The translations under genes were made by a program, and so were the position numbers. The notes beneath the pieces were generated by a model. That model was given only the letters and a program-made list of their open reading frames with translations, did no database searches and was not told where the DNA came from. Shown piece by piece: positions 21,028 to 53,586 of a stretch of DNA of 64,000 nucleotides (position 1 is the first letter of the stretch; every line of letters begins with the position of its first letter). Location of the stretch: assembly GCF_963667775.1 (NCBI RefSeq), contig NZ_OY764015.1, forward strand, positions 1,836,001 through 1,900,000, in the 5' to 3' direction. This DNA comes from an uncultured Trichococcus sp. Lineage in GTDB: Bacteria; Bacillota; Bacilli; Lactobacillales; Aerococcaceae.

Positions 21028-21513
21028 TTATTTTTTCTTTTTACTCTTACGAACTTCTTCGCCTGTAAATGGATCCGTGTACTCTAATAGGCTTAATTGT
21101 TCTGCCACTATATCATCTTGAATTTGGTTGCGTATATATTCTTGAATTGCCTTCTTGTTTCTTCCGACTGTATCGACATAATATCCTGTGCACCAGAATT
21201 TGCGATTCCCATAGCGATATTTCAGGTTGGAGTGTCTATCAAATATCATGAGGCTACTTTTACCTTTTAGATAGCCGACAAACGATGAGACACTTATCTT
21301 GGGCGGTATGCTTACCAACATGTGTATATGATCCACACAAGCAGTGGCTTCGATTATTTCTACACCTTTTCTTTCGCATAACTGCCTTAGTATGACTCCT
21401 ATATCTTGTTTTATCTTTCCGTAGATTGCTTGCCTCCGGTATTTGGGCGCAAAAACTATGTGATACTTACAATTCCAAGTGGTATGTGCTAAACTATTTT
21501 TGTCTTGAGACAT
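21028..21513 (-). CDS. tnpA: IS200-family transposase TnpA (Y1 HUH)
   Basis: Single-strand DNA transposase. The HUH metal site is seen as HIHM in VDHIHMLVSIP near residue 63, and the catalytic tyrosine is probably that in QEYIRNQIQDD near residue 128. WNCKYHIVFAPKYRR is the family's N-terminal signature. It is 161 residues and has no frameshift or internal stop, so it may be active. Its ribosome site AGGAGG (21523-21528) can be hidden in a long hairpin. Confidence 0.96.
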   Translation of the reverse strand: MSQDKNSLAHTTWNCKYHIVFAPKYRRQAIYGKIKQDIGVILRQLCERKGVEIIEATACVDHIHMLVSIPPKISVSSFVGYLKGKSSLMIFDRHSNLKYRYGNRKFWCTGYYVDTVGRNKKAIQEYIRNQIQDDIVAEQLSLLEYTDPFTGEEVRKSKKKK

Positions 21514-37891: not shown

Positions 37892-37947
37892 AAAAATAAA
37901 TACGGCCGTCAATTCTGTTTGAATTGACGGCCGTACTTATTTTTTTG
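37892..37947. terminator. Bidirectional terminator between fruR upstream region and the repeat array
   Basis: A perfect 15-bp stem TACGGCCGTCAATTC with its complement (37901-37915 and 37921-37935) and a 5-base loop is flanked by A-rich and T-rich tails on both sides. It probably ends groESL transcripts after they pass through the repeat array, about 450 bases past groEL. Confidence 0.85.
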
Positions 37948-37975: not shown

Positions 37976-38024
37976 CCGTTATCCTCTTAGTACTCGATTT
38001 CTAGAGCGGGATTCATGTTATCCT
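37976..38024. repeat. Truncated copy of the extragenic palindrome (right half only)
   Basis: The sequence CTCTTAG, then CTCGATTTCTAGAGCGGGATTCAT and TATCC matches the right half of the full copy at 38276-38395 almost base for base. No matching left half (TGAATCCC with AGAAATC) is found to its left, where the fruR-side terminator lies. It looks like a copy that lost one arm. Confidence 0.75.
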
Positions 38025-38029
38025 GTTTT

Positions 38030-38147
38030 AGTCGAACTCTGAATTGCAGAGGGTTCCGCCTAAGTTGATAACCACACACGGCCAAAAAACGTCCGCTTTG
38101 TGGTTATCCTCTTAGTGCTCACCCTCTAAACGCAATTCATCGTATCC
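38030..38147. repeat. Extragenic palindrome family, copy 1
   Basis: About 118 bases fold as one long interrupted hairpin. Outer stem: TGAATTGC (38040-38047) with GCAATTCA (38132-38139), and AGAGGGT (38048-38054) with ACCCTCT (38121-38127); AAAC (38128-38131) bulges between them on one side. Then CTAAG/CTTAG and GATAACCACA/TGTGGTTATC form the inner stem with a 22-base loop. Edges carry AGT(T/C)GAACTC on the left and TCATCGTATCC on the right, shared with the other copies. Confidence 0.85.
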
Positions 38148-38150
38148 TTT

Positions 38151-38269
38151 AGTTGAGTTCTGATTCGCAGATACCGCTCCCGTTTCGCAAACAGTTGTTG
38201 TCCACAAAAGAGGTGGACAGCAACTGTTCACTCCAACGTCCGGGTATCTAAACGCGAATCATCACATCC
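38151..38269. repeat. Extragenic palindrome family, copy 2
   Basis: Outer stem TGATTCGC (38161-38168)/GCGAATCA (38254-38261) and AGATACC (38169-38175)/GGTATCT (38243-38249), again with an AAAC bulge (38250-38253). Both arms differ from copy 1 at several positions but remain perfectly complementary. The inner stem is unrelated: AACAGTTG and TGTCCAC pair with CAACTGTT and GTGGACA (38190-38228) around a 7-base loop. The CTAAG/CTTAG block is missing. Confidence 0.85.
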
Positions 38270-38275
38270 TGTTTT

Positions 38276-38395
38276 AGTTGAACTCTGAATCCCAGAAATC
38301 TCCGCCTAAGCTGAAATACCCACCTCGACCAAAACCGGGTCGTGGTGGGTATTTCCTCTTAGTGCTCGATTTCTAGAGTGGGATTCATCGTATCC
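38276..38395. repeat. Extragenic palindrome family, copy 3 (next to groEL stop)
   Basis: Outer stem TGAATCCC (38286-38293)/GGGATTCA (38380-38387) and AGAAATC (38294-38300)/GATTTCT (38368-38374), with AGAGT as the bulge. CTAAG/CTTAG follows, then an inner stem GAAATACCCAC/GTGGGTATTTC (38313-38323 and 38345-38355) extended by TCGAC/GTCG. The right edge TCATCGTATCC ends only 3 bases before the groEL stop codon at 38399-38401. Confidence 0.88.
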
Positions 38396-38398
38396 TGA

Positions 38399-40012
<1,614 letters not shown>

Positions 40013-53418: not shown

Positions 53419-53462
53419 TGCGGGATTCATCGTATCCTTTTGTAAACGCGAATCATCACGCT
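53419..53462. repeat. Relic half copies of the extragenic palindrome
   Basis: GCGGGATTCATCGTATCC (53421-53438) equals the right edge of copies 0 and 3, and GTAAACGCGAATCATCAC (53442-53459) equals the right edge of copy 2. Their left arms are missing. Two different right edges in a row suggest that several copies once stood here. Confidence 0.75.
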
Positions 53463-53465
53463 CTA

Positions 53466-53585
53466 AGTTGAACTCTGAATTGCAGAACGGACGTCCACTT
53501 CACACCCAAGTATTAAATCTGAAAAACACAGATTTTATCCTTGGGTGCTCCAGTGATTCCGTTCTAAACGCAATTCATCGTATCC
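53466..53585. repeat. Extragenic palindrome family, copy 4 (next to proS stop)
   Basis: Outer stem TGAATTGC (53476-53483)/GCAATTCA (53570-53577) and AGAACGGA (53484-53491)/TCCGTTCT (53558-53565), with the AAAC bulge at 53566-53569. The inner stem CACCCAAG, then AAATCTG, pairs with CAGATTT and CTTGGGTG. Edges AGTTGAACTC and TCATCGTATCC are as in copies 1-3. The right edge touches the proS stop codon (53587-53589). Confidence 0.88.
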
Positions 53586-53586
53586 T

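Follow-up and report, generated by a model that had tools for sequence, protein, structure and literature searches.

Long hairpins with covarying stems behind groEL and other genes of Trichococcus, and their relatives in Bacilli

Introduction

REPs are dispersed palindromes that lie mostly downstream of coding regions and are thought to be mobile (PMC3733652). As described in that source, the REPs of Proteobacteria measure 20–40 bp, most of them carry a GTAG or CGTC tag, and the ends of GTAG REPs often provide the TAG stop codon of the flanking gene (PMC3733652). The hairpins reported here resemble GTAG REPs in that they are dispersed, palindromic, located downstream of genes, and able to supply a stop codon, but they are approximately 121 nt long, are untagged (the preceding base is mixed), occur in Bacilli, and have no linked Y1 transposase in the genome in which they were found.

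Efa-1 of Enterococcus faecalis has been described as a 163-nt repeat consisting of a pair of adjacent stem-loops (PMC2267715). Like Efa-1, the present hairpins are structured intergenic repeats of Lactobacillales, but they are 121 nt long and form a single long hairpin, a distinction based on description and not on sequence. The repeats bcr1–bcr18 are described as belonging to the Bacillus cereus group, where some are MITE-like, approximately half of the copies lie in transcripts, and bcr3 correlates with mRNA decay rate (PMC3446304). These are also repeats of Bacilli, and they differ from ours, by description and not by sequence, in the group for which they have been reported.

EFAR repeats are bidirectional terminators and may be the same as Efa-1. 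The attC sites of integrons have the core boxes RYYYAAC...GTTRRRY, conserve the fold over the sequence, are oriented, and lie behind stop codons, with units being exchanged. The hairpins share with attC the precedence of fold over sequence, the oriented units behind stop codons, and the presence of differing units at one site; unlike attC, they have no R boxes (by eye) and no cassettes, and no integrase was identified.

The hairpins are an unnamed family of a known kind of element. We estimate a probability of approximately 50% that they are non-autonomous mobile palindromes, similar to REPs or MITEs in their behaviour.

Results and Discussion

Array behind groEL

The window (the whole 64,000-nt stretch of DNA that was analysed) belongs to the 3.3-Mb genome of an uncultured Trichococcus sp., hereafter the source genome. 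An initial annotation had reported three full tandem hairpins and a truncated one behind groEL, and the edges obtained with a covariance model lay within 1–2 nt of its coordinates. All gene names were assigned by eye from translations, and that of groEL also follows the annotation. The features of the window are as follows.

38399..40012, minus strand: groEL host gene (ORF)
38399-38401, minus strand: groEL stop codon TAA, 2 nt ahead of the first copy in the sense direction
38274..38396, minus strand: copy 1 after the groEL stop; model R1 110.5 bits, E 3.1e-27; fold -60.9 kcal/mol
38149..38270, minus strand: copy 2; model R1 55.9 bits, E 1.5e-12; fold -54.6 kcal/mol
38028..38148, minus strand: copy 3; model R1 129.8 bits, E 2e-32; fold -55.6 kcal/mol
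37976..38024, minus strand: fourth copy, 3′-truncated, sense 5′ half only, at the distal array end (from the sequence); weak fold of -5.5 kcal/mol
37895..37941, minus strand: intrinsic-terminator-like hairpin of 20 pairs, ending in a T-rich tail and lying beyond the array when read in the groEL sense
53464..53586, minus strand: further copy of core type E; model R1 58.7 bits, E 2.5e-13
53420..53463, minus strand: two 5′-end remnants of further copies, distal to copy 53464-53586 (by eye)

The sense (gene-following) strand of the groEL array is the minus strand of the window, on which the 3′ side of the gene reads TAA, 2 nt, three tandem units of 121–123 nt, a half unit, and the terminator-like hairpin. 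Copies 1 and 3 both have core type A and the edge GATAC/GTTC, with the outer stems TGAATCCC/GGGATTCA in copy 1, which has a long inner stem, and TGAATTGC/GCAATTCA in copy 3. The middle copy differs from its two neighbours in core type (type B, ACGTTGGAG...GAAACG) and has the edge GATGT/ACTC and the outer stem TGATTCGC/GCGAATCA. The sequences quoted in the annotation were present, and its six pairs of arms were exact reverse complements at the places given. The edges that it had called conserved were also found, but they vary in matched left–right classes. The annotation had recognised the hairpin array; which strand follows the gene, the placement at stop codons, the variation among copies at fixed sites, and the wider occurrence in Bacilli were absent from it. 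The further copy of the window lies directly 3′ of the stop codon (offset 0) of a prolyl-tRNA-synthetase-like gene.

The annotation had also proposed a search for further copies, and many were found in the source genome and more in relatives. With positions 37976-38395 as the query, 41 BLAST matches were obtained in the source genome, and a covariance model (27 copies, 121 positions) gave 45 matches at E ≤ 1e-3. Twenty-five arrays, each of one to four copies, account for 44 of these; the match at 2789441 (E 2.2e-4) stands outside them, and a scan match at 2370727 was dropped as a false positive. Alignment A1 comprises 27 of the 37 scanned copies, nine type-B copies are in A2, and the truncated copy at 1788639 is in neither. 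A second, shorter repeat, GGATGCACTGTGACCG...CAAGAGCCATGAC, was observed inside or just before some copies, both on the groEL 3′ sides of L113, L109, and L119 and at two places in the source genome (near 1280174 and 3113795), and appears to be a distinct element nesting within the hairpins.

Anatomy of the hairpin

The unit is an imperfect palindrome of approximately 121 nt that forms one long interrupted hairpin and is dispersed and often tandem. It consists of nested shells that match from left to right: an edge pair, in most copies a GA/GA loop, the outer stem P1, a short 5′ bulge, P2, and the core. On the sense strand, a conserved 5′ foot (AGAG or AGGAT in most copies) is followed by a short edge helix and the GA/GA internal loop. 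P1 has 8 pairs and P2 has 7, with the short bulge between them on the 5′ side, and the cores, which are of several types (labelled A, B, C, and E), end in a U-rich loop before the 3′ foot.

The shells were compared among 184 distinct near-full copies, of which 169 and 166 entered the edge and interior comparisons, respectively. The left edge predicts the right one (GATAC-GTTC 41/46, AGCGT-ACGC 28/29, GATGT-ACTC 24/26, and AGTGT-ACAC 20/25), and P1 arms occur with several cores; for example, TGATTCGC was found 26 times with core A and 24 times with core B. Among 234 copy pairs (not independent of each other) with interiors at least 93% identical, 15 differed in P1 at two or more positions, and in 10 of these the arms were fully complementary in both copies. 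Since so few of the near-identical interiors differ in P1, this stem mostly travels with the interior. Of 198 pairs alike in interior and P1, 31 differed in both edges. The edges stay matched left to right while stems and cores are partly reshuffled. Neighbours in an array had a P1 arm in common in 2 of 45 cases compared with 7.6 expected (fraction of shuffles 0.007), and no such depletion was seen for P2 (2 vs. 3.1 expected).

Arm matching is not absolute, since P1 arms were not fully complementary in 27 of 169 copies, chimeras included (by eye). The chimeric copies at 1705055, 1705176, and 2351671 (minus strand) of the source genome have 5′ and 3′ halves of different types (by eye), so that their outer stems mismatch, which indicates recombination through the core.

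Covariation and strand polarity

Six full copies, among them the three of the window, folded with z-scores of -6.4 to -8.0 relative to dinucleotide shuffles, and a chance or low-complexity palindrome was ruled out by these scores and by the covariation shuffles described below. In the 27 type A/C copies of the source genome, 26 of 41 pairs had changes on both sides, and the alignment contained 164 double-changed cells compared with 55 ± 6 in column shuffles and 5–36 in slid controls. Thirteen of 43 pairs were changed on both sides in the type B alignment (8 distinct rows). Further pair types did not exceed the shuffles, 98 of 500 (type A/C) and 72 of 500 (type B) of which reached the observed count. 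In 28 distinct copies from other genera, 39 of 41 pairs were double-changed, with 418 cells vs. 125, and 33 distinct copies from a class-wide search gave 473 double-changed cells vs. 150, although the number of double-changed pairs in the latter was not above shuffles (38 vs. 36; 105/500). Alignments A1 and A2 were not fitted to the model; A3–A7 were, and their counts therefore lean towards it. Covariation is strong within the source genome and across families. It bears out the proposal of the annotation that paired changes preserve the fold, through selection or a copying mechanism: the signal exceeds both shuffled and slid controls, with control for phylogeny coming only from the slid alignments and from the occurrence of the family in many genera.

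Of 156 distinct Trichococcus copies, 144 folded better as the sense strand than as the antisense strand, and over all sets this held for 326 of 350 copies; the strand had been set from the genes for the Trichococcus model and was chosen by the model in the other sets. Genome G181 was an exception (sense better in 5/13). The GA/GA loop was kept in 134 of 156 Trichococcus copies. Together with the better folding of the sense strand, this suggests that one strand is the active one.

P1 and P2 of Trichococcus contained 2361 Watson–Crick, 41 G-U, and 45 A-C cells; for P1 by itself the ratio of A-C to G-U was 27:7. The outer stems are unlike ordinary RNA selection in this respect, and a DNA-level process could give such an A-C excess. 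Some inner helices showed the opposite, an excess of G-U over A-C (20:3 for P3 in Trichococcus and 48:6 for P4 in g52). The pairing data are compatible with a process that recognises one DNA strand in its folded form, with the copying of one arm onto the other, or with a mixture of these and RNA-level selection. We infer from the conservation of shape and not of sequence that a trans-acting enzyme may recognise the sense strand once it has folded, its target being most likely single-stranded DNA; the arms would be kept matched by recognition of the fold, by copying of one arm from the other, or by both.

These data also bear on a different explanation, in which the hairpin is a cis-acting RNA element of the 3′ UTR, selected in the mRNA as an exonuclease barrier or for an effect on translation termination, with mobility being secondary. 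The better folding of the sense strand and the G-U excess of some inner helices agree with it, as do links of REPs and bcr3 with mRNA stability or decay described in PMC3733652 and PMC3446304. In P1 and P2 of Trichococcus, however, G-U is as rare as A-C (41:45), and we regard this explanation as somewhat unlikely.

Placement at stop codons and terminators

Of the 25 arrays in the source genome, 20 have their start between -5 and +9 nt relative to a sense ORF's stop codon; the ORF at 2461412, which is among these, is only 75 codons long. Gene calls were plain ORFs of at least 60 codons in the source genome and at least 80 codons in the named genomes. In named Trichococcus genomes, where arrays beginning less than 330 nt from the start of their locus were skipped, 54 of 69 arrays begin within -16 to +12 nt of a sense stop codon and 61 have a codirectional 5′ neighbour, counts that are non-independent because sites are orthologous. 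The 16 nt next to the other end were free of opposite-strand stop codons in all 69 arrays. A terminator-like sense site was present within 250 nt downstream of 34 of 67 arrays and upstream of none of 69. The hairpins of Trichococcus are placed in sense orientation, flush with stop codons and ahead of terminators, and they probably lie within the 3′ UTRs of mRNAs. A role of the hairpins in the 3′ UTR is likely enough to be tested.

Long stable hairpins at gene 3′ ends could also be transcription terminators, bidirectional in the manner of EFAR. The stop codon of the other neighbour also faces the array in 28 of 69 Trichococcus arrays, and in genome G364, terminator-like sites lie inside two of ten arrays in the sense direction and inside five of ten in the antisense direction, as would be expected of terminators. 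None of the 69 Trichococcus arrays, however, contains such a site (GC hairpin and T run), and a separate terminator-like site stands behind the groEL array as behind the 34 arrays mentioned above. Terminators were rejected for Trichococcus on this basis, and the explanation is very improbable for the hairpins in general.

Outside Trichococcus, the Lactobacillaceae-like genus g73 (G354, G357, and G396) showed stop-flush arrays in 22 of 26 cases and G364 in 4 of 10. Such sense placement was low elsewhere (G237 2/46, G181 1/13, plasmids 1/5, and G338 0/1), and in G237 a sense terminator lay upstream of 10 of 46 arrays and downstream of 0 of 44. Among 18 loci of the class-wide search, three of them within the order, five were flush (to within 4 nt), and two of the five apparently lie behind one and the same gene. 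G237 and G181 rule out a general stop-codon rule, and the counts for G237, G181, and the plasmids indicate that stop-flush placement is a lineage trait and not a property of the whole family. For the RNA element considered above, the sense, stop-flush position before terminators in Trichococcus and the flush position in g73 are favourable, while the loss of this placement in G237 and G181 is not.

The 5′ end of a further unit follows 15 of 25 arrays in the source genome by a strict motif and six more by eye, and 12 of the 15 have no 3′ end within the next 170 nt. In the named genomes, such an end follows 28 of 67 arrays; the corresponding counts were 7 at a control distance and 2 ahead of the first copy.

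Turnover and empty sites at orthologous gene ends

All 12 Trichococcus groEL genes for which the 3′ side was available have model matches behind them, and the composition of the array varies. For pgpA, a full copy or a remnant was located directly at the stop codon in 11 of 12 Trichococcus genomes (by eye), and among 12 other genomes a copy was seen in G025 only. We compared the ends of 20 host genes with those in four relatives, which gave 79 of 80 gene ends (iclR was not found in G005). Model matches were present at 47 of these ends and, in 28 cases, began at exactly the nucleotide seen in the source genome; most of the remaining occupied ends were shifted by a few nucleotides and one by 98 nt. 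The other 32 ends had no model match. For an RNA element selected in cis, the occupation of all 12 groEL ends is as expected, but the 32 ends without a match are not.

Content also differed at occupied ends. The edge/stem/core label of the first copy was alike in 11 cases and unlike in 36, sometimes by a single letter. In 28 of the 47, the first copy was less than 90% identical (identities computed to two decimals) to every copy of the source genome at that site, with gene ends being identical at 59–70 of 70 positions, and in 27 of the 47 its best match in the source genome was at another gene. Occupied sites may exchange copies by recombination between dispersed copies.

Several sites were empty in relatives. 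The rlmH site is filled in the source genome and empty with the same flanks in G005, G004, G008, and G009, and no copy was seen by eye in the other 7 relatives. The junction reads AAATGAG, element, GTCATT in the source genome compared with AAATGAGGTCATT in the relatives, so that at most 3 nt (GAG) were duplicated. The site of the gene at 1569572 is filled in the source genome and in 0 of 4 relatives, with no clear target-site duplication, and that of the gene at 2461412 is empty in 3 of 4 relatives. At glpK, where a 5-nt CAAAA repeat was noticed by eye, the element supplies the TGA stop codon in the source genome and three relatives read on to a later stop. The cleanly empty sites indicate that the elements are inserted and, together with glpK, that insertion occurs in addition to change of content. 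Copies would remain at such positions since the element there provides or keeps a stop codon, leaves the gene unbroken, and would be transcribed as a harmless, possibly protective, 3′-UTR hairpin.

A further explanation for differing units at a fixed position is that the hairpins are structure-recognised, attC-like recombination sites, with a recombinase acting on the folded strand to add or exchange units at gene ends. The precedence of shape over sequence, the oriented tandem units just behind stop codons, and the frequent presence of another unit's 5′ fragment behind an array are as expected for such sites. The boxes RYYYAAC/GTTRRRY of the general consensus, however, are not at the edges (by eye), no cassette genes lie between units, and no recombinase was identified, which makes this explanation quite unlikely. 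Integron attC sites themselves were rejected by the edges, which do not fit (by eye).

Search for an enzyme or autonomous parent

The explanation as non-autonomous mobile palindromes recognised by their fold, and in Trichococcus parked behind stop codons, agrees with most of our observations. The hairpins share with MITEs that they are small, palindromic, dispersed, and polymorphic in presence. GTAG REPs have a dedicated RAYT transposase flanked by the repeats. No transposase for them was identified in the source genome, where the four Y1 transposase genes are each at least 4.9 kb from any array; one of these four, a Y1 (IS200/IS605-type) gene, is located at 21124-21480 of the window (minus strand). 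An autonomous parent with the edge AACRCGTTT was not found in the source genome, in which all 19 exact 3′ edges TCAGAACRCGTTT (one edge class) belong to known copies. There was no fixed base just 5′ of the element over 42 distinct flanks (T15 C12 A10 G5), and the 7 bases before this position were A-rich. Along with these negative results, the placement in G237, G181, and the plasmids, the G-U excess of some inner helices, the imperfect P1 arms, and the coupling of P1 to its interior speak against mobile palindromes of this kind.

Distribution and naming

Model matches were found in 15 of 41 genomes of relatives, including all 12 Trichococcus congeners, and in 37 of 395 genomes and 17 of 80 genera of the order. 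A model built on diverse copies had matches in 39 of 398 genomes and 18 of 146 genera of the class, families outside the order included. Few candidates per genome were scored in the order and class scans, so that copy numbers are lower bounds.

One 3.0-Mb Lactobacillaceae-like genome, G237, contained 103 matches (loci L239-L278). Copies in this genome lie in both orientations to their neighbours, unlike those of Trichococcus. A G237 query matched 23 plasmid records of Lacticaseibacillus, Pediococcus, and Lactiplantibacillus, and the five examined all had model matches; copies of this kind were present on plasmids of Lacticaseibacillus paracasei, Pediococcus acidilactici, and Lactiplantibacillus plantarum. 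Trichococcus-type copies had no match at E ≤ 1e-3 in plasmid and phage collections, and queries from G327 and G396 had no plasmid match. The exact core pattern was found in 71 stretches, all in Trichococcus records or in a record titled Sedimentibacter sp. SX930. This record (L172, L199, and others; MUZD contigs), with its Trichococcus-type element, is probably a misnamed Trichococcus. In another genome (G536), a copy at L416 1501-1622 lies within an rRNA operon, after the 23S rRNA, which ends at 1496, and ahead of the 5S rRNA, which starts at 1755.

A known Rfam 15 family was rejected, since no match at the gathering threshold lay over a copy in the window or in 20 and 18 further loci, and all overlaps were sub-threshold. 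The view of the annotation that no named family fits agrees with this result and with the literature searched, most subscription journals lying outside that search, in which no described or named family was found.

Significance

A bolder proposal is a system spanning the Bacilli, in which a putative enzyme would recognise the shape taken by one DNA strand and would insert units at gene ends, add to them, and exchange them, all in one orientation. We consider this unlikely; if true, it would provide genes with exchangeable 3′ UTRs and would be a chromosomal analogue of integron arrays without cassettes.

If our interpretation of the hairpins is right, the Bacilli, with food bacteria and their plasmids among them, contain a large repeat family without a name, which is united by its fold and not by its sequence, is consequently hard for a sequence search to see as one family, and in some genera decorates the 3′ ends of housekeeping genes. 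The hairpins offer a natural series of matched compensatory stem changes, and they directly raise the question of whether turnover of the 3′ UTRs in housekeeping genes can be the work of a mobile element that reads shape.
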